Positions 9,614 to 27,270 of a stretch of DNA of 27,270 bases are shown here, piece after piece; position 1 is the stretch's first letter, and each line of letters opens with the position of its first letter. The notes below the pieces were generated by a model, which saw only the letters and a list, made by a program, of their open reading frames with translations, was not told the origin of the DNA and did no database searches. The stretch is from an uncultured Oscillospiraceae bacterium (GTDB lineage Bacteria; Bacillota; Clostridia; Oscillospirales; Ruminococcaceae). Location: contig CAKSEE010000040.1 of NCBI GenBank assembly GCA_934446455.1, positions 1-27,270 of the forward strand, read 5' to 3'. The position numbers were made by a program, and so were the translations under genes.

Positions 9614-9624
9614 AGGAGAGCCTT

Positions 9625-11367
9625 ATGTTTGAAATAAAAGACGAATTTCTGCTTGACGGAAAGCCCTTTAAGATAATTTCGGGAGCGGTGCATTACTTCC
9701 GCACAGTACCGGATTACTGGCGCGACAGGCTTGAAAAGCTGGTGAATATCGGGTGCAATACCGTTGAAACATATATTCCATGGAATTTTCACGAGCCGAG
9801 GCAGGGCGAGTTCCTGTGGGAGGGTATGCGGGATGTATGCCGCTTTATAGAGCTTGCGCAGGAGCTTGGACTTTATATGATGTTAAGACCCTCGCCCTAC
9901 ATATGCTCGGAATGGGAGTTCGGTGGGCTGCCCGCATGGCTGCTTAAGGACCCGAAAATGCGCCTGCGCTGCTCGTACGCGCCGTACCTTGACGCCGTAA
10001 AGCGCTATTACAACGTACTTATTCCGAAAATTGCCCCGTATCAGCAGGACAGGGGCGGAAATATAATTCTGGTGCAGATCGAAAACGAGTACGGCTATTA
10101 TGGCAACGATACGGCTTACCTTGAGTTCCTGCGCGATACGATGCGCGGGCTTGGCATAACCGTGCCGTTTGTAACGTCCGACGGTCCGTGGAAGGAAGCT
10201 GTTTTCAGGGCAGGAATGGTTGAAGGGGCGCTGCCGACGGGTAACTTCGGTTCTTCTGCGGAATGGCAGTTCGGCGAAATGCGGCGGTTTATAGGCGAGG
10301 GCAGGCCGCTTATGTGTATGGAGTTCTGGAACGGCTGGTTTGACGCATGGGGCGAGGAACACCATGTCACAGAGCCTGAAAAGGCCGCACATGAGCTGAA
10401 CGAGCTTCTTAAGCGCGGCAGCATGAGTTTCTATATGTTCGAGGGCGGCACAAACTTTGGATTTATGGCAGGCAGGGGCGAAGGCAACGAAACTGCTGAC
10501 GTCACCTCATACGACTACGACTCGCCGCTCACCGAGGACGGGCAGCTTACAAGGAAGTACGAGCTTTGCAGGGAAGTGATCTCGCGCTACGCCGATATAC
10601 GGCAGATACCGCTTACAACTGCAATAAAGCGCGCGGAGTTCGGCAGTATAGCGTGCGCGGCAAAAACAGACCTTTTCAGCACGCTCTGCACGCTGTCAGA
10701 GCCTGTGACGTCCGTATGCCCGCTCAGCTTCGAGGAGCTTGACTGCTATTACGGCTATGTGCTTTACAGGCTGAAAATAAAGGAGTGCGAGCAGGCGGAC
10801 GATGTAAGGTGTGAAAACGCCGCAGACAGGGTTCAGGTATTCAGGAACGGGAAATATGCCTTTACGGCGAACGGCGCAGATGCAGGGGAAGCGTTCGGGC
10901 TTCCCGAAAAGACCTGCGGCGGCACGCTGGAGCTGCTTGTAGAAAATGTGGGCAGAGAAAATTTCGGAACGGGGCTTGAGCGGCAGCGAAAGGGCATTCT
11001 TGGCGGCGTTAAGGTCAACGACCACAGGTATTACGGCTTTGATATGTACTGCCTGCCGCTCGATGAGAAGCAGCTTGAAAGGATAGACTTCAGCAGCGGC
11101 TGCGCCGATGGCGCGCCTGTATTTTACCGCTTTGATTTCAACGTGACAGAGCCCGCCGACACATTTCTTGACACGAAAGGCTTCGGAAAGGGCGTCGCCT
11201 TTATCAACGGCTTCAATCTGGGCAGATTCTGGGATATCGGGCCGCAGAAAAGGCTTTATATTCCCGCGCCGCTTATGAAAAAGGGCGCAAACACCATTAT
11301 ACTGTTTGAAACAGAGGGCAGAAGCAGTGGCGAAATATATCTGTCCGATACCCCCGCGCTCGGGTGA
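9625..11367 (+). CDS. GH35 beta-galactosidase
   Basis: GH35 retaining enzymes remove terminal beta-linked galactose. The 580-residue protein has the family's N-terminal TIM barrel, beginning with LLDGKPFKIISGAVHYFR. The acid/base is Glu155 in VQIENEYGYYG and the nucleophile is Glu233 in LMCMEFWNGW. Beta-rich C-terminal domains include FINGFNLGRFWDIGPQ, a GH35 hallmark. No signal peptide is seen. AAAGGAG lies between the GH95 stop and ATG 9625. With GH95 it would strip fucose and galactose from host-type oligosaccharides. By eye its codon use (more GAA, ACA, AAA) is a little less GC-biased than GH95 next door, which might indicate a separate origin. Confidence 0.92.
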   Translation: MFEIKDEFLLDGKPFKIISGAVHYFRTVPDYWRDRLEKLVNIGCNTVETYIPWNFHEPRQGEFLWEGMRDVCRFIELAQELGLYMMLRPSPYICSEWEFGGLPAWLLKDPKMRLRCSYAPYLDAVKRYYNVLIPKIAPYQQDRGGNIILVQIENEYGYYGNDTAYLEFLRDTMRGLGITVPFVTSDGPWKEAVFRAGMVEGALPTGNFGSSAEWQFGEMRRFIGEGRPLMCMEFWNGWFDAWGEEHHVTEPEKAAHELNELLKRGSMSFYMFEGGTNFGFMAGRGEGNETADVTSYDYDSPLTEDGQLTRKYELCREVISRYADIRQIPLTTAIKRAEFGSIACAAKTDLFSTLCTLSEPVTSVCPLSFEELDCYYGYVLYRLKIKECEQADDVRCENAADRVQVFRNGKYAFTANGADAGEAFGLPEKTCGGTLELLVENVGRENFGTGLERQRKGILGGVKVNDHRYYGFDMYCLPLDEKQLERIDFSSGCADGAPVFYRFDFNVTEPADTFLDTKGFGKGVAFINGFNLGRFWDIGPQKRLYIPAPLMKKGANTIILFETEGRSSGEIYLSDTPALG

Positions 11368-12203: not shown

Positions 12204-13094
12204 ATGAAAACCAGAAACTTTGCATACCTTGGCATTACGGCGGCACTCATTCTCGGCGCGCTTACAGGCTGCGCAGGCGGAAACAGCTCCTCGGGCAGCA
12301 AAAAGAGCGACCTCGGCGCTATCACCGTGGTATCCCGCGAGGACGGCTCGGGTACGCGCGGCGCGTTCGTTGAGCTTATGGGCATTGAGCAGAAGAACGC
12401 CGCAGGCGACAAGGAGGACATGACTCGCGCGGACGCCGAGATAAACAACTCCACAAACGGCGTGCTGATGAGCGTTGCGGGCAACCCTTCCGCTATCGGA
12501 TACATCTCGCTCGGCTCTCTTAACGACACGGTAAAGGCGCTTAAGGTTGACGGCACTGCCGTAAGCGTAGACAACATAAAGGCGGGTTCTTACCCCGTTG
12601 CAAGACCGTTCAACATCTGCTACCTTGAGACCTCGCTCACCGAGCTCGACAAGGACTTCATCTCCTTTATCGTAAGCACCGACGGGCAGGCTATCGTTGC
12701 GGACAAGGGCTACATTGCAATTGAAGCCGGCGACGCATACACCCCCTCAGGTCTGAGCGGCACTATCACCTGCAACGGCTCTACCTCTGTAGGTCCTGTA
12801 ATGGAGGTTCTTGCCGCAAAGTATCAGGAGCTTAACCCCGACGTCAAGATAGAGGTTCAGCAGACCGGTTCGGGCGCGGGCATTACCGCAGCTGCCGAGG
12901 GCGCGTGCCGGATAGGCATGGCTTCGCGCGACCTCAAGCAGGAGGAGCTTGACGCGGGTCTTACTCCCCTTAAGATAGCGGACGACGGCATAGCGGTTAT
13001 CGTAAACCTTGAGAACCCGCTTGACGACATCACTTCCGAGCAGGTTATGAAGATCTACACAGGCTCGATAAGCGACTGGTCCGAGCTTGGCTGA
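12204..13094 (+). CDS. pstS: Phosphate-binding lipoprotein PstS, circularly permuted order
   Basis: This is the extracytoplasmic phosphate receptor of the PstSCAB importer. The 296-residue protein has a lipoprotein signal with LTGC, cysteine at residue 23, and AAGGAG before ATG 12204. The order of its halves is unusual. Residues about 38-180 correspond to the normal C-terminal part: the phosphate-binding loop SREDGSGTRG at 44-53, GYISLGSLND, and the ARPFNI...ISFIVSTDGQAIV ending. Residues about 184-296 correspond to the normal N-terminal part: NGSTSVGPV at 191-199, QTGSGAGI at 220-227, GMASRDL at 238-244, and the ITSEQVMKIYTGSISDWSELG end. In standard PstS the NGSTSV part comes first. All loops that contact phosphate are present, so a complete binding site is expected. 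Confidence 0.93.
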   Translation: MKTRNFAYLGITAALILGALTGCAGGNSSSGSKKSDLGAITVVSREDGSGTRGAFVELMGIEQKNAAGDKEDMTRADAEINNSTNGVLMSVAGNPSAIGYISLGSLNDTVKALKVDGTAVSVDNIKAGSYPVARPFNICYLETSLTELDKDFISFIVSTDGQAIVADKGYIAIEAGDAYTPSGLSGTITCNGSTSVGPVMEVLAAKYQELNPDVKIEVQQTGSGAGITAAAEGACRIGMASRDLKQEELDAGLTPLKIADDGIAVIVNLENPLDDITSEQVMKIYTGSISDWSELG

Positions 13095-13136
13095 TAAAGA
13101 CAACCATTCACCTTCTTGGTGTTCTTCTCCCTTCCG

Positions 13137-13162
13137 CCGCATGAAGCCTCCGCTTCGTGCGG
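13137..13162 (+). other. Intercistronic hairpin between pstS and pstC
   Basis: CCGCATGAAG (13137-13146) pairs with CTTCGTGCGG (13153-13162): 10 bp including one T-G pair, 6-nt loop, no T run after it. It looks like an mRNA-stabilising or partial-termination structure. Such hairpins after binding-protein genes often raise the level of the receptor over the permease; that use here is inferred. Confidence 0.6.
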
Positions 13163-13192
13163 TACAGCCATATTATAGGAACGAGGTCAGAT

Positions 13193-14065
13193 ATGCGAAA
13201 TGCAAAGACTATGCTTGCAAAAGCAAAGGAAATAATAATGCACGGGCTTTTCCTGCTGTGCGCGTGCGCTTCAATACTTGCGGTAGTGCTTATATGCGTG
13301 TATCTTTTCGCAACGGGCATTCCCGCTATGGGCGAGATAGGCGTGACGGACTTTCTGTTCGGCATGGACTGGAAGCCCTCCGGCGGGTGCTTCGGCATAT
13401 TCCCGATGATAATCGGCAGCATACTTGTAACGGGAATCGCGGTGCTTATCGGCGTTCCGATAGGGATACTGTGCGCGGTGTTCATGTCGCACTACTGCCC
13501 AAAAAAGGTATACGCGTTCATGAAGCCGGCGGTGAATCTGCTGGCGGGCATTCCGTCGATAGTGTACGGCTTCTTCGGGCTTGTGTTTATCGTGCCGCTT
13601 ATTCGCACGCTGTTCGGCGGCGCGGGAAAGTCCCTGCTGACGGCGGGCATTCTCCTTGGCATAATGATACTGCCGACCGTCATAAAGACCTCGGAGTCGA
13701 GCCTTAACGCCGTTCCCAAAAGCTGCTACGAGGGCGCGCGGGCGCTTGGCGCAACGCATGAGCGCAGCGTGTTCTTCGCTTCGCTCCCTGCGGCGAAATC
13801 GGGCATACTGGCGGCTATAATCCTGGGCGTTGGCAGGGCGATAGGCGAAACCATGGCGGTAGTGATGATAGCGGGCAACCAGACCATGATACCGCGCAGC
13901 ATTACCTCGGGCGTCAGAACGCTCACCACCAACATTGTAATAGAAATGGGCTACGCCACGGGGCTGCACCGCAGCGCGCTTATAGCTACCGCCGTTGTGC
14001 TGTTCGTGTTCATACTTATAATCAACCTCTGCTTCTCCGTGCTTAAAAGGAGGAAGGACAAATGA
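13193..14065 (+). CDS. pstC: Phosphate ABC transporter permease PstC
   Basis: This is one of the two membrane subunits of the phosphate importer. From ATG 13193 it has 290 residues; GAGG at 13182-13185 supports this start, and a GTG further upstream at 13157 falls inside the intercistronic hairpin and is unlikely. Six hydrophobic segments are visible, the first at about 15-40. The cytoplasmic EAA loop, EGARALGATHERSVFFASLP, is the site that docks the ATPase, and LAGIPSIVYGFFGL is a PstC/PstA family signature. It overlaps pstA by the sequence ATGA. Confidence 0.95.
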   Translation: MRNAKTMLAKAKEIIMHGLFLLCACASILAVVLICVYLFATGIPAMGEIGVTDFLFGMDWKPSGGCFGIFPMIIGSILVTGIAVLIGVPIGILCAVFMSHYCPKKVYAFMKPAVNLLAGIPSIVYGFFGLVFIVPLIRTLFGGAGKSLLTAGILLGIMILPTVIKTSESSLNAVPKSCYEGARALGATHERSVFFASLPAAKSGILAAIILGVGRAIGETMAVVMIAGNQTMIPRSITSGVRTLTTNIVIEMGYATGLHRSALIATAVVLFVFILIINLCFSVLKRRKDK

Positions 14066-14982
14066 TAAAGGCAGCCGTAACCCGTACCGAGGCGCACAAC
14101 GCCGCGCCCGAGGGATACATCAACAAACAGACCCTCGGCGCAAAGCTGCGGCAGTACGCAAAAAGTCCGCTTTCGCTTGTGCTTATGATACTCGTAATGC
14201 TCTCCGCCCTGTTCGCCGCGGGAATACTGCTCTTTATCGTGGGATATATCCTCGTAAACGGCATACCGCACATCACTGCGGAGCAGTTCGAGTGGACCTA
14301 CACCCCCGAAAACCAGAGCATGATGCCCGCTATCATAAACACCGTGCTTATGACGGCGCTTACGCTGCTGCTTGCAGTGCCCGTGGGCATCTTTGCGGCG
14401 GTATACCTTGTTGAGTACGCAAAGCGCGGAAACAAGCTCGTAAAGCTTATACGCATAACCACCGAAACGCTTTCGGGCATTCCGTCGATAGTGTTCGGCC
14501 TGTTCGGATTCCTGATGTTCGTTATCCACCTTAAGTGGGGCAACGCAATGCTCGCGGGCATTATCACGCTTGCGATGATGGTGCTGCCGCTTATAATCCG
14601 CACAACGGAGGAGGCGCTGCTCGCCGTGCCCGACAGCTACCGCGAGGGCAGCTTCGGGCTGGGCGCGGGCAAGATGCGCACGGTGTCCCGCGTTATCCTG
14701 CCGACCGCCGTGCCCGGCATAATGTCGGGCGTTATCCTTGCGATAGGGCGTATCGTCGGCGAATCCGCGGCGCTTATCTTCACGGCGGGAACCTACCGCG
14801 CCGTGCCCGAGTCGCTTATGGACTCGACAGCTACCCTTACCGTGCATATGTATATTCAGTCCAACGAGGGACTGCACACCGACCTGGCGTTCGCGAGCGC
14901 GGTTATACTGCTTGCGCTCACGTTCCTTATAAACCTTGCCTCCGACCTTATCGAGCGCAGGATAGCGAGAAAGAAGGGCTGA
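14062..14982 (+). CDS. pstA: Phosphate ABC transporter permease PstA
   Basis: Second membrane subunit, 306 residues. AGGAGGAAGG in the end of pstC serves as ribosome site, and the ATG overlaps the pstC stop by four bases, implying translational coupling. A cytoplasmic N-terminus of about 40 residues is followed by six hydrophobic segments. The signature [14 protein letters not shown] and the EAA-type loop [20 protein letters not shown] match PstA. It is separated from pstB by one base. Confidence 0.95.
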
Positions 14983-14983
14983 T

Positions 14984-15733
14984 ATGAGCAAATTTGACAT
15001 AACCAACGCCGAGCTTTACTACGGCGATTTCAAGGCGCTTAAGGGTATAAACCTTGCAATACCCGAGAATAAGATAACCGCGTTCATAGGCCCGTCGGGC
15101 TGCGGTAAATCAACGCTCTTAAAGTCCCTCAACCGCATGAACGACCTTGTGGAGGGCTGCCGCATTACGGGGCAGTTCCTGCTTGACGGCGAGGATATTT
15201 ACGGCAGAATGGACGTAAACGAACTGCGCAAGCGCGTGGGCATGGTGTTCCAGAAGCCCAACCCCTTCCCTATGAGCGTGTACGACAACATAGCGTTCGG
15301 CCCGCGCACGCACGGCATACACTCAAAGGTAAAGCTCGACGATATCGTGGAGAAATCCCTGCGGGACGCGGCGATATGGGACGAACTGAAGGACAGGCTG
15401 AAAAAGAGCGCGCTGGGGCTTTCGGGCGGGCAGCAGCAGCGCCTTTGCATTGCGCGCGCCCTTGCGGTGCAGCCCGAGGTGCTGCTTATGGACGAGCCGA
15501 CTTCCGCGCTCGACCCTATTTCAACTTCCAAGATAGAAGACCTTGCAATTGAGCTGAAAAAGGAGTATACTATAGTTATGGTAACTCACAATATGCAGCA
15601 GGCGGCGCGTATTTCCGACATGACCGCGTTCTTCCTTCTGGGAGAGGTAGTCGAGTACGCGGACACCGACAGCATTTTCTCCAACCCGCAGGATAAGCGC
15701 ACCGAGGACTACATAACGGGGCGCTTCGGCTGA
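14984..15733 (+). CDS. pstB: Phosphate ABC transporter ATP-binding protein PstB
   Basis: This is the cytoplasmic ATPase that powers phosphate import. The 249 residues contain Walker [10 protein letters not shown] (about 36-44), the Q loop in [17 protein letters not shown], the ABC signature [15 protein letters not shown], Walker [12 protein letters not shown], and the H loop [17 protein letters not shown] is typical of PstB. Length is normal for the family. It is followed 16 bp later by phoU. Confidence 0.97.
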
Positions 15734-15749
15734 TAACAGGAGGGACGAC

Positions 15750-16388
15750 ATGAGAAACCGTTTTGACGAGCAGCTCGAGCAGCTGAACGTTGAGCTTATA
15801 AAGATGGGCGCGCTTTGCGAGGAGAGCATAGCGTGCGCGGTAAAGGCTCTTTTCGGTGAAAAGACCGAGTTTATGATAGACAAGGTAAACGAAAATGAGA
15901 ACGAAATAGACCACATGGAGCACGACATAGAGGCGCTGTGCATGAAGCTGCTGCTGCACCAGCAGCCCGTGGCGCGCGACCTGCGCAGCGTATCGAGCGC
16001 GCTTAAGATGATAACGGACATGGAGCGTATAGGCGACCAGTCGCAGGACATCGCGGAGATAGCGGGCTTTATCCACTCTGCGAGCCTTGCGGGCAGGGTG
16101 CATATAAACGAAATGGCGAACGAGGCGATAAGCATGGTAACGACAAGCGTGGATTCGTTCGTAAAGCGCGATATAGAGCTTGCGCAGCGCGCTATTGATT
16201 CTGACGACAGGGTGGACGCGCTGTTTTTGCAGGTAAAGGGCGAGCTTATCGGGCTTGTACGCAGCGACGCGGAGGACGCGGAGTACCTTATGGACCTGCT
16301 TATGGCGGCGAAGTATCTTGAACGTATAGCCGACCACGCAACCAACATTGCGGAGTGGGTGAAATATTCCATAACAGGCGAGCGCTGA
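15750..16388 (+). CDS. phoU: Phosphate transport/signalling protein PhoU
   Basis: PhoU links the Pst transporter to the PhoR kinase and dampens uptake and signalling when phosphate is ample. The 212-residue all-helical protein has the two expected tandem repeats, with metal-binding motifs MERIGDQSQDIAE and LERIADHATNIAEW. A strong AGGAGGG precedes ATG 15750. Its place between pstB and the two-component genes matches its known partners. Confidence 0.95.
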   Translation: MRNRFDEQLEQLNVELIKMGALCEESIACAVKALFGEKTEFMIDKVNENENEIDHMEHDIEALCMKLLLHQQPVARDLRSVSSALKMITDMERIGDQSQDIAEIAGFIHSASLAGRVHINEMANEAISMVTTSVDSFVKRDIELAQRAIDSDDRVDALFLQVKGELIGLVRSDAEDAEYLMDLLMAAKYLERIADHATNIAEWVKYSITGER

Positions 16389-16409
16389 GGCGCGGAAACG
16401 AGGTAAGCA

Positions 16410-17078
16410 ATGGTTTTTTTGCTTGAAGACGACGGCAGCATACGCAACTTTGTGCTGTATGCGCTTAACAATTCGGGGCTGGAGGCGCGCGGGTTCGAGC
16501 GCCCGTCGGAGTTCCGGGCGGCGCTTGCGGAGGAGAAGCCCGCAGTGGTGCTGCTTGACATAATGCTCCCCGAGGAGGACGGCTTAAGCGTTCTTGCCAG
16601 ACTGCGAGCAGACCGCGAATATGCGGATATGCCCGTGATAATGCTCACCGCAAAGGGTTCGGAATACGACAAGGTGATAGGGCTTGACAGCGGCGCGGAC
16701 GATTACATAGCAAAGCCTTTCGGCACAATGGAGCTTATCTCGCGCATAAAGGCGCTGATGCGGCGCACGCGCAGGGACGCCCGCACGGAGTACAGCTTCG
16801 GCGGGCTGTGCGTCAACACCTCGAAGCACACCGTAACGGTAAACGGCGCGGACGTGCAGCTCACCTACAAGGAGTTTGAACTGCTGTGCTACCTGCTTGA
16901 AAACATCGACACGGTGCTTACGCGCGAGAAGATACTGTCGCGCGTGTGGGGGTACGACTTCGACGGCGAGAGCCGCACGGTGGACGTTCACATAAGAACG
17001 CTGCGGCAGAAGCTGGGCGGCGCGGGGCGCATGATAGAAACGGTGCGCGGCATAGGCTACAAGGCGGTAAGACTCTGA
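16410..17078 (+). CDS. phoB: Response regulator PhoB/PhoP type (OmpR family)
   Basis: The 222-residue protein has a receiver domain with acidic pocket Glu6-Asp7-Asp8, phospho-acceptor Asp50 (LLDIMLPEEDG), Thr80 and Lys102 (AKPF), and a winged-helix DNA-binding domain with YKEFELLCYLLEN, LTREKILSRVWGYD and RTVDVHIRTLRQKLG. It is predicted to be phosphorylated by the adjacent kinase and to bind the repeats at 12023-12062. The N-terminus is very short before the first strand (MVFLLEDD), which is acceptable. A weak ACGAGGT site precedes the start. Confidence 0.93.
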   Translation: MVFLLEDDGSIRNFVLYALNNSGLEARGFERPSEFRAALAEEKPAVVLLDIMLPEEDGLSVLARLRADREYADMPVIMLTAKGSEYDKVIGLDSGADDYIAKPFGTMELISRIKALMRRTRRDARTEYSFGGLCVNTSKHTVTVNGADVQLTYKEFELLCYLLENIDTVLTREKILSRVWGYDFDGESRTVDVHIRTLRQKLGGAGRMIETVRGIGYKAVRL

Positions 17079-17091
17079 AACGGAGCGATAT

Positions 17092-18768
17092 ATGACAAAG
17101 AGGATTTTCGGCGGAGCGTTTGCGGCTTCGCTAATAGCGGTAATTGCGGCGATAGCGCTTGTGCTCGGCGTTACCTACGCCAATGAGCGCGCGCTGTATT
17201 CGCAGCAGATAGAGGAACAGACGCGGCTGCTTGCAGTCACCATGCAGTACACCGCAAGCGACTTTGACGTGGCGAGCCTTGAAACGCTCGGCGCGTTTGA
17301 AAACAGGATAACCTACATAGCCGCGGACGGCACGGTGCTTTTCGACAACAAGGCGGACCCCGTGCAGATGGAGAACCACAACGACCGCGAGGAGGTAAGG
17401 GCGGCGCGTAAGAGCGGCAACGGCTTTGCGGTGCGCGAAAGCTCCACGATAAGCAAGCGCACCATTTACTGCGCGCGGCAGATTGCTGACGGGTGCGTTG
17501 TAAGGGTGTCGGGCACGATGGATACGGTGCTTGGCGTGGTGCTTGGTATGTGGTGGGAGGTGCTGCTGGCGCTTCTTGCCGCGGCTGCGCTTTCGGGCGG
17601 AATAGCGGCGCTTGTGGCGCGCGCCGTGGTAAGGCCGATAAACGCCATAGACCTCAGGGCTCCCGATATTGCTGAAAGCTACGGCGAGATAGCGCCGCTC
17701 CTCCACAGAATAAAGGAGCAGAACGCCGAAATCTCCGCGCGGATGGCGGAGCTTTCCCGCAGCCGCGAGGAGTTCACGCTTATAACAGAGAACATGAGCG
17801 AGGGCTTTATCATAACCGACAGCCGCACCGAGGTGCTGTCCTACAACAGGGCGGCGCTTGAGATACTCGGCGCGGACGGCGGGGACGGTCAGACGCGCAG
17901 CGTGCTTGCGCTCAACCGCAGCGAGAACTTCCGCCGCGCGGTGGAAACGGCGCTTTCGGGCAGCCGCTGCGAGCAGGAGCTGACGCTCGGCGAGCGCGTG
18001 TACCAGCTTATTTCGACCCCCGTGCGCGCAGACGGCGGGGTAAGCGGCGCGGTGCTGATAATCCTTGACATAACCGAAAAGGAGAGCCGCGAGGAGCTGC
18101 GGCGGGAGTTCACCTCCAACGTGTCGCACGAGCTTAAAACGCCGCTTACAACGATATACGGCATAGCGGACATGATAGTCGGCGGCATAGTAAAGCCCGA
18201 GGACATAGGCAGGTTTGCAGGGGACATACGCGACGAGGCGAAGCGGCTGATAGCGCTTATCGAGGACATAATAAAGCTCTCGCAGCTTGACGAGAACACG
18301 TTTACAGACACAAAGGAGCGCGTGGATATCCTCTCCCTTGCGGAGCTTGCGGCATCAAGGCTTAAAACCGCGGCGGACGGCAAGCACGTTACGATAAACG
18401 TGAGCGGCGCGCGCGCGGAATACACGGGAATGTCCTCTGTGCTTGAGGAGATGATTTATAACCTGCTTGACAACGCCGTAAAGTACAACCGCGAGGGCGG
18501 CAGGGCGGATATCTCCGTTGAGGACGAGCCCGGGAGCGTTACGGTAACGGTGGCGGACACGGGTATAGGCATACCTGCGGACAGCATAGGGCGCGTGTTT
18601 GAGCGCTTCTACCGCGTGGACAAGAGCCACTCCCGCAGGATAGGCGGCACGGGGCTCGGGCTGTCTATAGTAAAGCACGGCGCGGCGCTTCACGGCGGCA
18701 CGGTTACTATCTCCAGCGCAGAGGGCTCGGGGACGACCGTAAAGCTCACGCTGCCGAAAACGGAATAA
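17092..18768 (+). CDS. phoR: Sensor histidine kinase PhoR type
   Basis: The 558-residue membrane kinase has one membrane segment at about 6-29, an extracytoplasmic region of about 110 residues, and a second membrane segment at about 147-172. A HAMP-like/linker region and a PAS-type domain (about 220-325, with ITENMSEGFIITDSRTEVL) come next. The dimerisation/phospho-acceptor helix has His346 in SNVSHELKTPLTTIYG. The catalytic domain has N box EEMIYNLLDNAVKYN, VADTGIGIP, the F box FERFYRVD and GGTGLGLSIVKH. This is the PhoR/PnpS arrangement. It lies 13 bp after phoB and is the last gene of the operon. Confidence 0.93.
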   Translation: MTKRIFGGAFAASLIAVIAAIALVLGVTYANERALYSQQIEEQTRLLAVTMQYTASDFDVASLETLGAFENRITYIAADGTVLFDNKADPVQMENHNDREEVRAARKSGNGFAVRESSTISKRTIYCARQIADGCVVRVSGTMDTVLGVVLGMWWEVLLALLAAAALSGGIAALVARAVVRPINAIDLRAPDIAESYGEIAPLLHRIKEQNAEISARMAELSRSREEFTLITENMSEGFIITDSRTEVLSYNRAALEILGADGGDGQTRSVLALNRSENFRRAVETALSGSRCEQELTLGERVYQLISTPVRADGGVSGAVLIILDITEKESREELRREFTSNVSHELKTPLTTIYGIADMIVGGIVKPEDIGRFAGDIRDEAKRLIALIEDIIKLSQLDENTFTDTKERVDILSLAELAASRLKTAADGKHVTINVSGARAEYTGMSSVLEEMIYNLLDNAVKYNREGGRADISVEDEPGSVTVTVADTGIGIPADSIGRVFERFYRVDKSHSRRIGGTGLGLSIVKHGAALHGGTVTISSAEGSGTTVKLTLPKTE

Positions 18769-21076: not shown

Positions 21077-22546
21077 TCAGCGCCCCGTGGCTGCGCGGTA
21101 TTTTTGCAGCGCGCCGCTCCATGCCGCAGCGTCTGCGGGTTCGCAGCGCTTTGTCATGCCGCAGGAAGCCACGAGCCTGCGCGCTTCGGCGATGCCGCCG
21201 ATTTCGCCGAGGGCGATAAGCGTTGAAAGCGCGTTTCCGAGCGCGGTAGCCTCAACGGGACCCGCAACGGCGGGTCTGCCGCAGGCGCAGGCGGTAAGCT
21301 CGCACAGCAGGCGGTCCTGCGTACCGCCGCCTATCATGTGTATCTGCGCGAAGCTCTCGTGCGTCAGCCGCTCTATCTGCTCTATCGCAAGCGCGAACTC
21401 GCACGCAAGGCTCTGGTAGATGCAGCGCAGCAGCGCGCCGTCCGTTTCGGGGACGGGCTGCCCCGTCCTGCGGCAGTATTCAGCGACAGCCGCGGGCATA
21501 TTCTCGGGCGCGGTGAAGTCCGCGCAGTTCGGGTCGATGAAGCTTACGAACGGCTCCGCCCCGCGCGCAAGGCTCTCCATGTCCGCAAAGGAATATTCCG
21601 TGCCGCCCTCCGCCCGACAGCGGCGGAACTCCTGAATAAGCCACAGCCCCATGATGTTGCGCAGCAGCATATTCTTTCCGCCGCAGCCGCCCTCGTTGGT
21701 AAGCCCCGCGTCAAGCGCCTCGCGCGTGTTAAGCGGGCGGGAAAGCTCCGTGCCGACAAGCGTCCACGTGCCGCAGGAAATGAACGCGAAGTGCTCCTGC
21801 GCGCTCGGCACGGCAAGCGCCGCGGAAGCGGTGTCGTGCGACGGACAGGCGATGACGGGCACAGGCTCGCACAGGAACTCCTCCGCAAGCTCCTCCTTAA
21901 GCATACCGTATACCTCGCCCGCGTGGATAAGCGGGCAGAATATACGCTTTGGCAGCCCCAGCAGCTCGATAAGGTGGATATCCCAGCCCTTGGACCTGCA
22001 GTCGATAAGCTGCGTTGTCGTCGCCTCGGTGTATTCGCTGCGGCACTTGCCCGTCAGCAGGTAAGCGAACAGGTCGGGCATCATCAGCAGCTTTTCAACG
22101 CGGAAGAGCTCGTTGCTCTCCCTTGAAGCGAGGTAATGCAGCTGAAAAATCGTGTTTATGTCCTGCGGCAGAACGCCCGTGCGATCGTAAAGCTCCTGCG
22201 CGCTTATGCGGGCGCATACCTCCTCGCGCATACCCTGCGTGCGCGTGTCGCGGTAATGCACGGGAGCGCTCAGCAGCGCGCCGTCGCGCCCGATAAGACC
22301 GAAGTCCACGCCCCATGTGTCTATGCTTATCGCGTCAAACCCGCCGCTGAACACGCCGAAGCTTATGCCGACCTTCATCTGCTCGAAAAGCTCGTCTATG
22401 TCCCAGCGCATTCTGCCATTTTCGGTGATGGGCTTGTTGGGAAAGCGGTGTATCTCCTCGAGCGAAATCTGCCCGTCCTCATACCTGCAAAGCATGGCGC
22501 GGGCGCTCGAAGCGCCGAAATCGAAAACAAGTACCGTTTTTGCCAT
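21077..22546 (-). CDS. rhaB: Rhamnulokinase-like FGGY carbohydrate kinase
   Basis: FGGY kinases of this group phosphorylate L-rhamnulose, and in some Firmicutes possibly L-fuculose, at C1. The 489-residue protein has the N-terminal phosphate loop VFDFGASSARAM, the RhaB-like motifs IHRFPN, RMRWDIDELF and IDTWGVDFGLI, catalytic Asp238 in ACPSHDTASAA, CGTWTLVGTEL, and the nucleotide-binding GGGTQDRLLCELTA. It resembles RhaB much more than E. coli FucK. AGGAGGTG lies 5 nt before the ATG. It is 191 bp downstream of the aldolase gene on the same strand and shares its terminator. No isomerase or transporter is in view, so rhamnose versus fucose use cannot be settled here. Confidence 0.88.
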   Translation of the reverse strand: MAKTVLVFDFGASSARAMLCRYEDGQISLEEIHRFPNKPITENGRMRWDIDELFEQMKVGISFGVFSGGFDAISIDTWGVDFGLIGRDGALLSAPVHYRDTRTQGMREEVCARISAQELYDRTGVLPQDINTIFQLHYLASRESNELFRVEKLLMMPDLFAYLLTGKCRSEYTEATTTQLIDCRSKGWDIHLIELLGLPKRIFCPLIHAGEVYGMLKEELAEEFLCEPVPVIACPSHDTASAALAVPSAQEHFAFISCGTWTLVGTELSRPLNTREALDAGLTNEGGCGGKNMLLRNIMGLWLIQEFRRCRAEGGTEYSFADMESLARGAEPFVSFIDPNCADFTAPENMPAAVAEYCRRTGQPVPETDGALLRCIYQSLACEFALAIEQIERLTHESFAQIHMIGGGTQDRLLCELTACACGRPAVAGPVEATALGNALSTLIALGEIGGIAEARRLVASCGMTKRCEPADAAAWSGALQKYRAATGR

Positions 22547-22622
22547 GGGGCACCTCCTGTGTCAATGCGCCGTGGGCGCTTTTATAGAGCGCATTGCTGC
22601 GCGTTTTCTGCGCGCTGTGTAA

Positions 22623-22769
22623 TTACAGCGGCTTTTCGGGGCAGACGAGCTGCACGCCGGGCAGCCCGTCAAAGCTGCACGGGACTATCCCAGCCTCGCG
22701 CCGGCCGAGCGCCGCTCTTACGGTTATGGTATCCGCCTTATTTGCTGTATTTTCTGTAGCCGGGGTGTC
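22623..22769 (-). other. Open coding-like frame between aldolase and kinase, without a start codon
   Basis: Overlapping the last codons of the aldolase in another frame, the minus strand stays open for 48 codons to a TAA at 22625-22623. The peptide includes TVRAALGRREAGIVP and ends GLPGVQLVCPEKPL, and its third positions look as GC-biased as real genes here. There is no ATG, GTG or TTG early in the frame and no Shine-Dalgarno site. It is either a relic of a gene once between the two, or chance. The rest of the spacer has GCGCGC-type small hairpins. Confidence 0.3.
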
Positions 22770-23424
22770 TTATCGGGAAGCTCTTTGCGATGTCGCAGCA
22801 CTCCTGAATCTTATCCATGGGCAGGTCGTGCGCGCCGCCGAGCTGCCTTGCCACAAGGCTCACCTTAGCAAAATGCTCGAGCGTTTCCATACGGTAGTAC
22901 GCCTGCGTGATGTCAACGCCGACGGTAAGCGCGCCGTGGTTTTCCATAAGTATCGTGTCGTGGTGCGCGAGGAACGGTATAATGCTGTCCGCAACGCCAA
23001 CGGAGCCGGGAGTGTCGTAGGGCGCTATCGGCACGCTGCCGAGGAAGATTATAGCCTCGGGCATGGTGTAGTCGTCAAGCGGAATATGCGCGATGGCGAA
23101 GCCCGTTGCGGTAGGCGGGTGCGCGTGAACAACGGCGTTCACCTCGGGGCGCTCCGCATAGCAGCGCAGGTGAACCTTGAACTCGCTCGTGGGCTTGTAG
23201 CCGGGCAGCGCCGCAGGCTCTACCACTTCGTTAGCGGCGTTCATCTTGATTATCATTCCGGGCTCAAGGATAGCCTTGCTTGTGCCTGTGGGGGTGGTTA
23301 AAAAGTTGCCGTCAGGCAGGCGCACGGAGATGTTGCCGTCGTTCGCCGCGACAAAGCCGAGCTGCCAGAGCTTGTGGCCGACGTCGCATATCGCCTGTGC
23401 CTGTGAGAGTTCGTATTCTGTCAT
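22738..23424 (-). CDS. fucA: Class II aldolase, L-fuculose-phosphate/L-rhamnulose-phosphate type
   Basis: These zinc enzymes split L-fuculose-1-P or related sugar-1-phosphates into dihydroxyacetone phosphate and lactaldehyde. The 228-residue protein has the phosphate loop NDGNISVRL, Ser/Thr contacts TPTGTSK, and the metal/catalytic set Glu81 (PTSEF), His100 and His102 (VVHAHPPT), and His163 (MENHGAL). I chose ATG 23424: AAGGA at about 23434-23438 is 9 nt away, against 3 nt for the in-frame ATG at 23430. Length fits FucA (about 215) better than E. coli RhaD (274). It is paired with a RhaB-like kinase, so the symbol is tentative. The 5' end has a promoter with an operator-like repeat. Confidence 0.85.
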   Translation of the reverse strand: MTEYELSQAQAICDVGHKLWQLGFVAANDGNISVRLPDGNFLTTPTGTSKAILEPGMIIKMNAANEVVEPAALPGYKPTSEFKVHLRCYAERPEVNAVVHAHPPTATGFAIAHIPLDDYTMPEAIIFLGSVPIAPYDTPGSVGVADSIIPFLAHHDTILMENHGALTVGVDITQAYYRMETLEHFAKVSLVARQLGGAHDLPMDKIQECCDIAKSFPIRHPGYRKYSK

Positions 23425-23482
23425 GATCATTGTTCCTTCCGTAAATTGCGTGTGCATATCTGCACATTATATTACATTATCC

Positions 23483-23511: not shown

Positions 23512-23593
23512 GGGCTTATTTTCAGTTTTTATTTGTGCAAAATCACCAAAAATTCCCCCTTTGATTTCTATGATGTTGAAACAGCCGATACAC

Positions 23594-23622
23594 TTGTAAT
23601 AATTCCGCTTTTGTTGTATAAT
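23594..23622 (+). promoter_or_regulatory. Promoter upstream of the SF2/GHKL pair
   Basis: TTGTAA at 23594-23599, 17-bp spacer and TATAAT at 23617-23622; a second TATAAT at 23635-23640 lacks an obvious -35. The predicted start, near 23629, is followed by a terminator-like hairpin before the first gene at 23764. Confidence 0.65.
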
Positions 23623-23651
23623 GATAACGTGGACTATAATCATGTCTGTTA

Positions 23652-23687
23652 AAAAAGCCGCATATGTGCTGTAAATCACGGCTTTTT
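23652..23687 (+). terminator. Terminator-like hairpin in the leader (possible attenuator)
   Basis: AAAAAGCCG (23652-23660) pairs with CGGCTTTTT (23679-23687): 9 bp with an 18-nt loop and a U-rich 3' arm. It lies about 25-60 nt after the predicted transcription start and 77 nt before the TTG start. Further small stems, CCCTGC-GGC-GCAGGG (23710-23724) and GGGC-TTACT-GCCC (23727-23739), lie between it and the ribosome site. It could end a small RNA or act as an attenuator. Confidence 0.6.
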
Positions 23688-23763
23688 CAGGACTGTTCAT
23701 CGTATTTTCCCCTGCGGCGCAGGGTCGGGCTTACTGCCCTTTATATAGTGGAGGTGCGACAAA

Positions 23764-25701
23764 TTGAGCGATATCAAATGGATACCCCTTGGCGGAATGG
23801 AGCTGTCTGCGGCGAACGTTGCGGCGGCTGAAAAACTGCGCAAGTTCGGCTTTGCGGTGAACTGCGGAGAGTTCGGCTCGGAGAAGCTCACCAAAACGGG
23901 ACTTTGCATTTATGACGTCCTTCAGGAAAAGGACAACCCGAGCATTCTGCTTATAACGTCCGACAGGCTGCTTTACGGCTGGTACAGGATACTGCTTACG
24001 GGGCTCGGCGCTGACTTCAAGGTCATAACCGACGCGCCGAATGCGCTGGCGTTCTTCAGCGAGAGCTGCCCGAATCTTTTCCTTATGTCGCGCGACGCGC
24101 TTATGGGGCAGAACGCCCTTAAGGGCAAGGTCGGCGCGCAGCACGTGTGGGATCTCATCATCATCGACGAGGAACAGAACACCGACGTTCCCGACTATGC
24201 CGCATATCAGAAGAACATACCGTGGAAGAGCGAGAAGCTTCTTGTGATAACGCAGTTCCCGCAGAGGAAGGACGCGGACGCCGCAGCGCTGTCCTCGCTC
24301 ATAAAGTCCGTTATGGACGACGCCTCGCTTGCGGCGCAGGCCGATGAAATGCTCTTCAGCGTGAACACCTCGCTTTTCGACGGGGATTCGCCTGTAATGC
24401 GCTATTACGGCGAAAGTGCGCTTTCGGGCGCGGCGCGCGGCGCGGAATTCTGCGAGTACGCGTTCGACGAAGCCGTGCTTAAGGGAATGCGCAGGCGCGT
24501 TGATCTGCGCACGGGTATCCCCGCATACCGTTACGGCGGTAATATTTTTGAGGAATACGACGCGGACGAGTTCAGAAAGATATACGAGAAGAACAGCTAC
24601 ACCCGTTCCGAGGTCGAGGACCTGCGCGGGTTCGACAGGAAGCTGGACGCGTTCATAAAGCTTGCGGAGGGCGTTGCGCAGGACAAGGACAGCCGCGCGA
24701 TGATCTACGTGTGCGAAAAGTCCACTGCGGACTACCTGAGAAAGACGCTTACCTGCCTTTACGGCGAGAATGCGGTACATACCGCGCGCGGCGAGATATT
24801 CCGCGCGGAGGATATTCTGCGCAAGCTGCGCGTTGACGACAGCGCGGAATACCCGAAGTTCATCATCGGCATAGACGCGCTCGGCGCGGTCGGCGAGGGC
24901 TTCGACAGGATAAACACGATAATCAGCTACGAGCTGCCCGCGTGCGCAGCCATGCTTGAAAGGCGCATGACGCGCCACGGCGGCGGCGACAAGCGCTTCA
25001 TAATCTTCCGCGACAAGAATAAGCTGTTCGACTCGCGCATGCTTGACAAGGTGCTTTTCAACACGCTTGCAGAGGCGTTCTGCGGCGAGCTGCCCACGAG
25101 AAATATGCTGCTAGATATCCCGCTCAAGGGCGAGTGTCTGAGTAATGCCGTTGCAGACCTTGAATACGCGATAGGCTACGCGAACGAGGTCGACAACTGC
25201 TTCGATTACATAAAGAAGTTCAAGGCGGACTATGTGCTGCTCGGCGCGGAGAACATCAACACGGGCAGGCAGCTTGCAGAGTTTGCGGAGAAGCTGCTGA
25301 ACGGACTTTGCTCGGCGTTCGGCATAAGCCGCGGGCAGACTCCACAGGAGATAGCTGCGGCAGCGCAGGCGGCGCACGGGCTGTGCTATCTTGACGGCGG
25401 TAAGATAACCGCCCTTACCGAAAACGAGCTTGCGCGCCTTGCAAAGAGCTTTGAGGGCGACGGGTGGCTGTCGCAGCCGTTTGCGGCGGAGGCAGTAAAG
25501 GGGCTTGCCGCGGCAAAGCAGAGGATAGACGAGCTTCACAGCGGCGAGGGCTACCACCTGCACATAAAGCAGGAGCTTTCCGCGCTTGCAGACTGCATAC
25601 AGTACCCTGTGCTGTACGGCATATGGCGCTTCAGGGTGCGTGAGCAGGATTCGCAGCGCTCGTTCAGGGATTTCATCAAGATATATAACGACGGCATTTA
25701 A
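23764..25701 (+). CDS. SNF2-like superfamily 2 ATPase/helicase with degenerate motifs
   Basis: The 645-residue protein starts at TTG 23764, 8 nt after GGAGGTG; no better ATG exists. RecA-like domain 1 shows a near P-loop at 38-45, GSEKLTKT, i.e. GxxxxGK(S/T) with the last Gly replaced by Thr; motif Ia/Ib-like LLITSDRLLYGWYRIL; and motif II IIIDEEQN with Asp135-Glu136. Domain 2 shows motif IV-like RAMIYVCEKSTADYLRKTL (311-329), motif V-like GIDALGAVGEGFDRIN (369-384), and a motif VI-like LERRMTRHGGG (398-408). The order matches SNF2/RapA-type SF2 proteins, with weak motifs I and VI. The C-terminal 200 residues are helical and unassigned. It lies 96 bp before a GHKL ATPase gene, likely co-transcribed. 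Whether it hydrolyses ATP is uncertain. No nuclease or methylase domain was seen. Confidence 0.75.
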   Translation: MSDIKWIPLGGMELSAANVAAAEKLRKFGFAVNCGEFGSEKLTKTGLCIYDVLQEKDNPSILLITSDRLLYGWYRILLTGLGADFKVITDAPNALAFFSESCPNLFLMSRDALMGQNALKGKVGAQHVWDLIIIDEEQNTDVPDYAAYQKNIPWKSEKLLVITQFPQRKDADAAALSSLIKSVMDDASLAAQADEMLFSVNTSLFDGDSPVMRYYGESALSGAARGAEFCEYAFDEAVLKGMRRRVDLRTGIPAYRYGGNIFEEYDADEFRKIYEKNSYTRSEVEDLRGFDRKLDAFIKLAEGVAQDKDSRAMIYVCEKSTADYLRKTLTCLYGENAVHTARGEIFRAEDILRKLRVDDSAEYPKFIIGIDALGAVGEGFDRINTIISYELPACAAMLERRMTRHGGGDKRFIIFRDKNKLFDSRMLDKVLFNTLAEAFCGELPTRNMLLDIPLKGECLSNAVADLEYAIGYANEVDNCFDYIKKFKADYVLLGAENINTGRQLAEFAEKLLNGLCSAFGISRGQTPQEIAAAAQAAHGLCYLDGGKITALTENELARLAKSFEGDGWLSQPFAAEAVKGLAAAKQRIDELHSGEGYHLHIKQELSALADCIQYPVLYGIWRFRVREQDSQRSFRDFIKIYNDGI

Positions 25702-25748
25702 CGCCCCGCTGAGGGGATTTACAGGCTGCCCCCCACCGCGCGGGGCGT
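25701..25748 (+). other. Intercistronic hairpin between the SF2-like and GHKL genes
   Basis: ACGCCCCGC (25701-25709) pairs perfectly with GCGGGGCGT (25740-25748); GAGGGG and CCCCC inside can extend it. No T run follows, so it is more likely a processing or stabilising element than a terminator. Confidence 0.55.
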
Positions 25749-25797
25749 GCGGCTTTCGGCATAAATACAACGAGCGCGGAGAAACGGGGCGTAATTT

Positions 25798-27270
25798 ATG
25801 AGCGAGGGCTATGAAACCGTTGAAAAGCTGCTTGGCGACTTTTTTGAGCGCCACACAGCCAAGGATAAGGACGGTATGGCTGCTGTTCTTCAGGATATAC
25901 AGCTTAAGCTGAAATCCGGGCAGATAGGCAGCGAACCCTTCAAGGATTATTTCAACAATATGTATGCCGGCAGAGGCGCGATAAACGTAACGGGAATGAT
26001 GAGCGATTATCCCCGCGAGTCTATCATACGCGAGCTGTTTCAGAACATATTCGGGTGCGACTACGACGAGAACGACATCAAGATAATGGTGGAGTTCCTC
26101 GACGAGGGCAAGGTGAAGCTCACCTACAATGAAACGGGCTTCAAGCTCGACCAGGTGTTCTACTACCTGTCCGTTGGCAGAAACGACGGCAACAAGGAGC
26201 GCGAGGGCCGCTTCGGTCTTGGCGCAAAGAGCGTCTTTGCGAACGTAACATGGTTCGAGATGCGCTCCAACAGCTACAAGCTGCGCGTTGTGAACAGGGA
26301 CGGCACGCTCGTCGTGCAGGAGCTTGATCTCACCGCACCGCATCACAAGCACACCGAGATAGTGTTCTCGCTGCCGCAGGACGAGCAGGAAGCGCTGCAC
26401 AGAAACCTTGCAACTCTCACGAGCGAAAAGGGCAGCTACATAAATATGGTCGACTTGTGCTTCGCGTTTATCAGAAAGAAGCACCTCAAGTCCACGGACG
26501 AGCAGGAGGCTTACGGCAGGACGTTCAACATTGCCGTGATAAACTACGGCAAGCCCGAGGTGGTTTACAGAATACAGCAGTACCGCAGGGACGAGAACGA
26601 TATCCCCAAGGTGCGCTTCCTTGAAAACGGCAAGAGCGTCGCGGACTTTATCCACGCGGAGCGCGAGGGGTTCGTGTACCTTATCCCGTTCGCGTTTTCG
26701 GGCGCAAAGCGCGAGGTAGGGCGCGTTCTCACCTCCAAGTACAACTACTTCTCCACATTTGAGCTTACAGGACTTGTGCGCGCAAACAGCCAGAAGTTCA
26801 TTGACGAGCAGCTTTCGGCGTTCTTTGTGAGCGTGCCGAACTGCTTTATCACAAACAACCGCGCGGGCATTCGCCACGACGCGCTTGAGGAGGTGTCCCG
26901 CTCGATTGAGGAGGGCATTCTCTCCGTTGTGGAGGAGTACAGCAGGCTGTTCGTGCTGGAGCTTGCTCAGCGCCCCGACAACCCCGAGCGCTATATGCTG
27001 CGCCCGAGGCAGTACGTGTTCGAGTTCTTCTTCAACTATGTTAGCACCAGCACCATTGTAAGCGGGCTTAAGGAGAAGTTCTGCGACAATATCCACGTAC
27101 ACTTCCCCAACAGCGAGGATACGGTGCTGTTCAACAAGCTCAAGGAGAACGGCTTCTTCACCGAGCGCGCGGAAGTCACCAGGGAGGAGCATGAGGACGG
27201 CAGCGCCGCGCAGGCTCTTGTGGGCGACATTGAGCAGATGGAGAAGTGGTACGGCAGGGACGACGACCAT
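25798..27270 (+). CDS. Sacsin/HSP90-like GHKL ATPase (C-terminus beyond window)
   Basis: 491 codons are visible from ATG 25798 with no stop. The only ribosome-site match is a weak GGGG at 25786-25789. Residues about 70-160 have a Bergerat (GHKL) fold: N box RELFQN with Glu79 and Asn83; a G1-like box YNETGF (residues 110-115) where the usual DxGxG is altered; and a G2 lid VGRNDGNKEREGRFGLGAKS ending at Ser145, whose GRFGLGAKSVF closely matches the GxFGxGxxS of sacsin-type N-terminal ATPases. Residues about 170-491 have no family I can name; they include GFVYLIPFAFSGAKREVGR and an Arg-rich NNRAGIRHDA. Together with the preceding SF2-like gene it forms a two-ATPase unit. Family knowledge: sacsin-like ATPases occur in several phage-defence and chaperone contexts. 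Function here is unknown. Confidence 0.75.
   Translation, partial: MSEGYETVEKLLGDFFERHTAKDKDGMAAVLQDIQLKLKSGQIGSEPFKDYFNNMYAGRGAINVTGMMSDYPRESIIRELFQNIFGCDYDENDIKIMVEFLDEGKVKLTYNETGFKLDQVFYYLSVGRNDGNKEREGRFGLGAKSVFANVTWFEMRSNSYKLRVVNRDGTLVVQELDLTAPHHKHTEIVFSLPQDEQEALHRNLATLTSEKGSYINMVDLCFAFIRKKHLKSTDEQEAYGRTFNIAVINYGKPEVVYRIQQYRRDENDIPKVRFLENGKSVADFIHAEREGFVYLIPFAFSGAKREVGRVLTSKYNYFSTFELTGLVRANSQKFIDEQLSAFFVSVPNCFITNNRAGIRHDALEEVSRSIEEGILSVVEEYSRLFVLELAQRPDNPERYMLRPRQYVFEFFFNYVSTSTIVSGLKEKFCDNIHVHFPNSEDTVLFNKLKENGFFTERAEVTREEHEDGSAAQALVGDIEQMEKWYGRDDDH

Follow-up and report, generated by a model that had tools for sequence, protein, structure and literature searches.

According to a comparative study (Iyer et al. 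2008, PMC2292703), operons combining a GHKL ATPase with a SWI2/SNF2 protein have been reported for restriction-modification systems; the MORC and paraMORC operons treated there are sporadic, laterally mobile and associated with nucleases and methylases, and the S5 domain of MORC is marked by the motif GhXhhpXXRhl. Here we describe a pair of adjacent genes, coding for a Snf2-like (SF2-type) protein and a GHKL ATPase, from an uncultured Oscillospiraceae bacterium (assembly GCA_934446455.1, contig CAKSEE010000040.1). The whole stretch of 27,270 nucleotides that was analysed is referred to as the window.

A MORC/paraMORC GHKL protein beside a SWI2/SNF2 helicase is the closest described kind. In both cases a protein with an N-terminal GHKL and an S5/transducer domain is encoded next to a Snf2-type SF2 protein. 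In contrast to the operons described there, the present pair is vertically inherited, belongs to the core genome, consists of two genes and has a helicase with a degraded ATPase site. The MORC S5 motif, in the form given there, was found in none of the 104 GHKL sequences, some of which are incomplete. Among the top-ranking papers listed in the literature searches, none describes the pair; since most subscription papers lay outside this search, the absence is weak evidence. Our interpretation, to which we assign a probability of roughly 40%, is that the pair forms a core operon of an active GHKL ATPase and a Snf2-fold pseudo-motor which is under division-linked control and has a role in nucleoprotein handling.

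Linkage and inheritance of the two genes

The two genes of the pair are located at the end of the window:

23764..25701, plus strand: gene for the Snf2-fold (SF2-like) protein, 645 aa, TTG start; two-lobe core at residues 4-445, helical extension at residues 446-645
25798..27270, plus strand: gene for the protein with GHKL ATPase and transducer domains; first 491 residues, the rest being cut off by the window end

Full-length relatives of the GHKL protein have 1018-1165 aa. The genes lie on the same strand with a gap of 96 bp, as the initial annotation of this DNA had stated, and every motif quoted in it is present. Its proposal of a linked pair of an SF2/Snf2-fold protein and a sacsin/HSP90-like GHKL protein proved correct, and none of the profile libraries scanned has a family of its own for either protein. 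Ten other window genes were compared for overall and third-position GC content, and both genes of the pair fall inside their range.

To collect relatives, an alignment of the Snf2-like protein was used for a pattern scan of an 84,980-species collection, which yielded 23 loci. In 22 of them the GHKL gene follows the Snf2-like gene; the remaining one (L020) ends within the Snf2-like gene. Most relatives belong to two genera, here called genus 1 (the genus of genome G005, with which the window groups) and genus 2 (the genus of G144); genome G111 represents a third genus. The co-occurrence count that had been suggested with the initial annotation showed same-strand neighbours in 102 of 103 genomes, the exception being G241, in which the genes are on two contigs. 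For this count, regions were picked around hits of both genes, and gaps were measured between stop-to-stop frames, which do not give true distances. The 103 genomes are G111 and 102 of the 114 genomes of genera 1 and 2. The other 12 are G211 and G223, which had no hit, G225, which had none of the Snf2-like gene, G226 (overlooked; its pair is found in locus L015), and G242, G243, G249, G254, G264, G278, G279 and G298, where one or both genes are absent or fragmentary.

The gene trees of the two proteins mirror each other. Pairwise distances correlate with r 0.96 over the 93 shared sequences and with 0.93 and 0.94 within the genera, and the window sequences group with genus 1 in both trees. This is expected of genes that are passed on together vertically. 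Between the genera, the Snf2-like protein retains 28% identity and the GHKL protein 43%. Besides fragments, weak second matches exist inside other long frames in G009 and G255 (GHKL model) and in G269 (Snf2 model); the pair is not single-copy in the strictest sense.

Distribution of the pair and the question of defence

Of 43 genus-1 genomes, 41 had the GHKL gene and 40 the Snf2-like gene; of 71 genus-2 genomes, the numbers were 69 and 65. Outside these genera the pair is rare: in the family sample 6 of 197 genomes had the GHKL gene, one of them (G111) from neither genus, and all 16 positive genomes of the order sample (394 genomes) belonged to genera 1 and 2. Thus the pair is a narrow but fixed trait. 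Some clusters of the GHKL protein represent thousands of metagenome sequences (P0235, 6548; P0176, 2374).

The initial annotation had inferred a defence role. The patchy, mobile occurrence within a genus that is typical of anti-phage defence systems was not observed for the pair. Neither gene was present in any plasmid record scanned, two scans of viral contigs with two peptide patterns each gave no confirmed relative, and Foldseek against viral models found generic GHKL proteins such as RIIA. The sole phage record with a match, MT835670.1 (locus L180), an unverified 'Bacteriophage sp.' from human faeces, was rejected as a phage: ten of its genes are colinear with those of G144 and 98-100% identical to them in amino-acid sequence, and it is a bacterial chromosome scaffold. 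The named neighbours of the pair, which are those of the neighbours that were annotated and were not scanned with PADLOC, are core or metabolic genes, with no nuclease or DNA methylase gene among them. The near-universal presence in two genera, the core-gene neighbours and the absence from phages and plasmids leave the defence role unsupported. Always separate homologues in fixed core positions had been named in advance as the finding that would speak against the proposed system; the core position of the pair goes against defence, although the two genes stay together in the loci seen.

With Pfam and NCBIfam, no family reached its cut-off on either window protein. Among the PADLOC models there were weak matches only, of the Snf2-like protein to HmaA (3.2e-7) and of the GHKL protein to TmtA (0.004), as well as a match to DrmD (4.8e-4). 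Hma and Tiamat, to which HmaA and TmtA belong, are systems that we take to be antiviral. In contrast to them, the pair has no DNA methylase among its named neighbours and a core distribution. The weak matches, together with the GHKL and SWI2/SNF2 operons of restriction-modification systems described in PMC2292703, could point to an antiviral system in which a GHKL ATPase cooperates with an SF2 helicase, as in restriction-type MORC/paraMORC operons, Hma, DISARM or Tiamat. Given the distribution, the neighbourhood, the mirrored trees and the degraded ATPase site of the Snf2-like protein described below, we regard this as quite unlikely.

The GHKL protein

The following elements of the GHKL protein were located in the window:

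26023..26049, plus strand: N-box IIRELFQNI (Glu79, Asn83)
26119..26148, plus strand: G1 box LTYNETGFKL
26200..26241, plus strand: G2/lid box REGRFGLGAKSVFA
26353..26355, plus strand: Thr186, the motif IV position

In the fold model, residues 57-432 adopt a GHKL plus transducer fold, as seen by comparison with HSP90/HtpG, MutL, GyrB and topoisomerase VI B. The protein has the hallmarks of the GHKL superfamily, i. e. a Bergerat fold, the N-box Glu and Asn, and the glycines of G1 and G2. Alignments to HSP90, GyrB and topoisomerase VI B extend to residues 385-432, and the S5-like domain after the GHKL domain places the protein in the GHKL-S5 group.

The catalytic residues are nearly invariant. Counted over the sequences that have a residue at the respective position, the N-box retains Glu79 in 103 of 103 and Asn83 in 102 of 103 cases; the G1 box N111 in 102/102, E112 in 101/102 and G114 in 100/101; and the G2/lid box G137, G140, G142 and K144 in 100/100 each. 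At position 186, 99 of 100 sequences have Thr and one has Ser. Judged by these residues, the GHKL protein is catalytically intact and apparently an active ATPase.

Which of the GHKL families it resembles most is less clear-cut. The sacsin-type ATP-binding domain (NF047352; Pfam SACS, PF25794) matches residues 75-154 including the G2/lid box, and NExGF-type G1 boxes are usual in sacsin-like proteins. However, the NF047352 scores were below the cut-off of 50 bits (22.1 bits for the window protein, at most 28.8 for the relatives scanned), and the C-terminal half and the partner gene differ. The predicted GHKL plus transducer fold is shared with HSP90/HtpG, MutL, GyrB and topoisomerase VI B, yet the model has only 9-15% identity to the compared structures, a search of solved-structure sequences with the GHKL profile gave nothing at E <= 1, and no Pfam match to HSP90 (PF00183) was listed for the GHKL proteins at E <= 1 and 0.5. 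Furthermore, the genomes have HtpG and MutL of their own: both genes were present in all 15 pair-bearing genomes tested. On this ground we rejected the idea that the GHKL protein takes the place of either of them.

The likeness to HSP90 raises the possibility of a chaperone for envelope or division complexes, in which the Snf2-fold protein would serve as a client adaptor instead of binding DNA. The fold does not choose in its favour, since a span of about 1.6 Z units takes in GyrB, topoisomerase VI B, MORC3 and MutL as well. An ordinary HtpG is present in the 15 genomes mentioned, and we know of no precedent for a Snf2 fold as an adaptor. We consider such a chaperone rather doubtful.

Near the C-terminus, beyond the part encoded in the window, a CxxC-x(28-45)-CxN motif was noticed in 87 of the 93 GHKL sequences longer than 950 aa (residues 886-926 in locus L004). 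It is perhaps zinc-binding.

The Snf2-like protein

Three motifs of the Snf2-like protein are relevant here:

23869..23901, plus strand: degraded motif I (Walker A) EFGSEKLTKTG, residues 36-46
24160..24180, plus strand: motif II IIDEEQN, residues 133-139
24955..24981, plus strand: remnant of motif VI LERRMTRHG, residues 398-406, with Arg401

The structure model shows two RecA-like lobes in the Snf2 arrangement, which assigns the fold to Snf2/SF2. The Foldseek check suggested with the initial annotation, when run on this protein, revealed a Snf2/RapA-like core: RapA was among the best hits (ranks 2, 3, 5 and 19), and many other Snf2 proteins also aligned well. The 50 matches listed by VIA-align contained no RapA, which is not evidence either way. 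One of three relatives scanned reached the Pfam cut-off for Helicase_C.

The two ATP-binding motifs, in contrast, never occur together in intact form. The register of motif I was fixed by relatives that have GEGKT or GGGKT, and the acidic box of motif II was scored as present if DE occurred anywhere in residues 133-139. In genus 1, none of the 37 readable sequences has GxGKT/S and all 38 have the DE box (33 DEE, one DEA, four DDE); in genus 2, GxGKT/S is found in 14 of 62 and the DE box in none of 62. The sequences of G111 and of the window have the DE box without GxGKT/S. Not counted were one sequence from each genus without the motif regions and, for motif I, a genus-1 sequence masked there. 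Hence an intact Walker A motif is combined with a Walker B DE in 0 of 101 readable sequences, and the catalytic residues of a Snf2/SF2 ATPase are incomplete throughout. The protein thus looks like a pseudo-motor without a complete ATPase site. This makes the label of a 'two-ATPase' system, under which the pair had initially been annotated, doubtful: the GHKL protein has near-invariant catalytic residues, whereas its partner lacks a complete site. Across 37 sequences from the three genera, 25 residues are invariant, Asp135 and Arg401 among them.

The Snf2-like protein has the two RecA-like lobes in common with RapA/Snf2 remodellers but differs by its incomplete Walker motifs and by the alpha-helical C-terminal 200 residues. 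The RapA hits would be compatible with a transcription factor similar to RapA, which would release or recycle RNA polymerase and have the GHKL protein for its ATP-driven clamp. RapA, however, acts through its own ATPase, which is degraded here, and so many other Snf2 proteins align well that we consider this explanation very unlikely.

The eroding Snf2 motifs also fit a formerly mobile conflict system which was captured once in an ancestor and whose retention today has a different reason or no strong one. The narrow distribution within the order and the likeness to the conflict-type GHKL/SF2 pairs of the MORC study argue in the same direction. A captured remnant of this kind is nevertheless unlikely in view of the near-invariant GHKL catalytic residues and the maintenance of the pair in about 100 genomes.

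Chromosomal position, promoter and a shared palindrome

In many loci the pair is located next to the division and cell-wall (dcw) cluster, the first gene of which is mraZ in these arrangements. In genus 2, 26 of the 53 testable loci have mraZ after the GHKL gene, and so has the only locus of the third genus; 9 genus-1 and 10 genus-2 loci were left out of the mraZ counts, as the flank was too short. In G111 the order after the GHKL gene is mraZ, rsmH, an ftsL-like gene (scoring below the cut-off of its model), a SpoVD/FtsI-type penicillin-binding protein, a Mur ligase, mraY and ftsW. Of 15 sampled loci, 10 contained the open reading frame (ORF) families of mraZ, rsmH, the ftsL-like gene and the SpoVD/FtsI-type protein. 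The gene before the pair is gpmI, together with tpiA and pgk, in part of genus 2 (named in locus L089). In genus 1 the pair is found beside genes for an FGGY kinase and an aldolase in one group and before an Rnf operon in another.

In 12 genus-1 loci (L008-L019) we also observed, by ORF family, a conserved protein of about 180 aa. Its gene lies on the minus strand, about 260-540 bp upstream of the pair, and is its divergent neighbour in 11 of these loci; a match of the protein to HDIG was below the cut-off.

Upstream of the pair, the window contains the following sites:

23532..23550, plus strand: palindromic operator-like site TTTGTGCAAAATCACCAAA, 13/16 to the palindrome TTTGTGCAnnnTGCACAAA
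23593..23622, plus strand: dedicated promoter CTTGTAATAATT-n5-TTTTGTTGTATAAT, with -35 TTGTAA and -10 TATAAT
23750..23756, plus strand: ribosome-binding site GGAGGTG; GGnGGTG is unchanged in 18 aligned upstream regions

The promoter pattern CTTGTAAWAWT-n6-TTTGKWGTATAAT, which the window promoter fits without mismatch, has a single copy per genome in 22 of the 43 genomes of genus 1. In 21 of these it stands immediately before the Snf2-like gene; the reversed control gave no hits. With one copy per genome, the idea of a regulon that has the full promoter in common was discarded. The fold of the leader RNA is unremarkable (z -1.31).

The palindrome TTTGTGCAnnnTGCACAAA is located about 40-60 bp upstream of the promoter. 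With up to 3 mismatches allowed, the window matches at 23532-23550 and nowhere else (chance expectation, mean 0.08; 8 of 100 shuffles had one). In genus 1, 30 of the 35 regions before the pair have the palindrome with at least 13/16 positions (mean of letter-shuffled regions 9.9); these regions were bounded by stop-to-stop frames and do not give true distances. The same threshold was reached upstream of mraZ in all 22 testable genus-1 regions and in 1 of 57 control regions of other genes, taken from loci L001-L023. The mraZ count was based on 30 loci of the 39 genomes with mraZ, with 6 starts unrecognised and two contigs too short. In G111 the palindrome matches 16/16 before the pair and 15/16 before mraZ. 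In genus 2 including G111, it was present in 22 of 55 flanks 3' of the GHKL gene, and mraZ is the next gene in all 22. Thus the pair is positionally linked to mraZ in many genus-2 loci, and in genus 1 the pair and mraZ have a palindrome in common. The mraZ upstream region of genus 2 often carries the same palindrome as that of genus 1, for example at positions 8261-8544 of locus L085.

A looser palindrome pattern gave 0-23 strand hits per genus-1 genome, full palindromes being counted twice; its reversed control had hits in one genome of 43. Further genes preceded by the palindrome, for each of which one or two representatives were named, code for a polysaccharide deacetylase and for cell-wall proteins of the G5-3D and G5-M23 types. 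We looked for the regulator of TTTGTGCAnnnTGCACAAA and found none. The palindrome may mark an undescribed regulon comprising mraZ/dcw, cell-wall proteins, polysaccharide deacetylase, phosphoglucose isomerase (PGI) and glyceraldehyde-3-phosphate dehydrogenase (GAPDH).

Interpretation

We interpret the pair as an operon of two genes that is specific to a lineage of Oscillospiraceae-type gut bacteria and part of their core genome. The second gene of the operon would encode an active GHKL ATPase of the HSP90/MutL/topoisomerase-clamp type, as suggested by the fold model and the near-invariant catalytic residues, and this protein could act as an ATP-driven dimer clamp. The Snf2-fold protein, which lacks a complete ATPase site, would most likely be its DNA- or nucleoprotein-binding partner, i. 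e. a pseudo-motor. The pair would be controlled together with the division and cell-wall cluster, with the palindrome as a putative operator, and it probably remodels chromosomal nucleoprotein or a DNA-bound complex in growth and division. A role at DNA is suggested by the two folds and by the GHKL-Snf2 pairs known elsewhere. A more specific version would be a chromosome-structuring machine of new design, in which a MORC/MutL-like GHKL clamp that does the ATP work is combined with a dead Snf2 motor for DNA docking; it would be a core component in a few related genera of gut Firmicutes and share its control with the division cluster. To us this is rather unlikely in such a specific form.

Several observations weigh against the interpretation as a division-linked operon with a pseudo-motor. 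In genus 1, the genus of the window, mraZ is next to the pair in none of 30 testable loci, and in genus 2, 26 loci with sufficient room have no adjoining mraZ and one more has it at a distance of 1.3 kb. The pair promoters of genus 2 (G111 included) have the palindrome at 13/16 or better in only 6 of 60 cases. The palindrome is also found before genes for PGI, GAPDH, leucine-rich repeat (LRR) proteins and a DeoR-type regulator, which indicates that its regulator is broader than division. Among 60 palindrome sites sampled from the looser-pattern hits of eleven genomes, 13 fall within a picked ORF, so that part of the sites may be without function, and 11 have no picked ORF within reach. As for the Snf2-like protein, Asp135 and Arg401 are present in all readable sequences, which does not favour a dead motor, and the Walker A lysine, Lys41, is found in each of the 37 genus-1 sequences and in 55 of 63 others. 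Nucleotide binding may therefore persist.

Other genes of the window

The genes upstream of the pair are:

21077-22546, minus strand: FGGY carbohydrate kinase gene
22738-23457, minus strand: class II aldolase gene

Relatives of both were found in 9 of the 23 related loci (L001-L006, L020-L022). Further upstream (7325-11367), genes for GH95 and GH35 glycosidases lie in tandem; together with the kinase and aldolase genes at 21077-23457 they resemble parts of what we take to be a cluster for host-glycan use. Genes for a PBP-like solute-binding protein, an ABC permease and a PAS/HisKA histidine kinase are close together at 12204-18768, presumably similar to a phosphate-uptake (pst/pho) locus.

Significance

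GHKL-Snf2 pairs are known from conflict systems of the restriction type. The division of labour between an active GHKL protein and an inactive Snf2 protein gives clear predictions, which can be tested with the two purified proteins. If our interpretation is true, the pair, being fixed in the core genome, with a Snf2 ATPase that has decayed and a link to cell division by regulation and position, would be an example of a conflict-type module that has been taken into ordinary cell biology, and it would provide a new chromosome or envelope factor for a group of little-studied gut bacteria.

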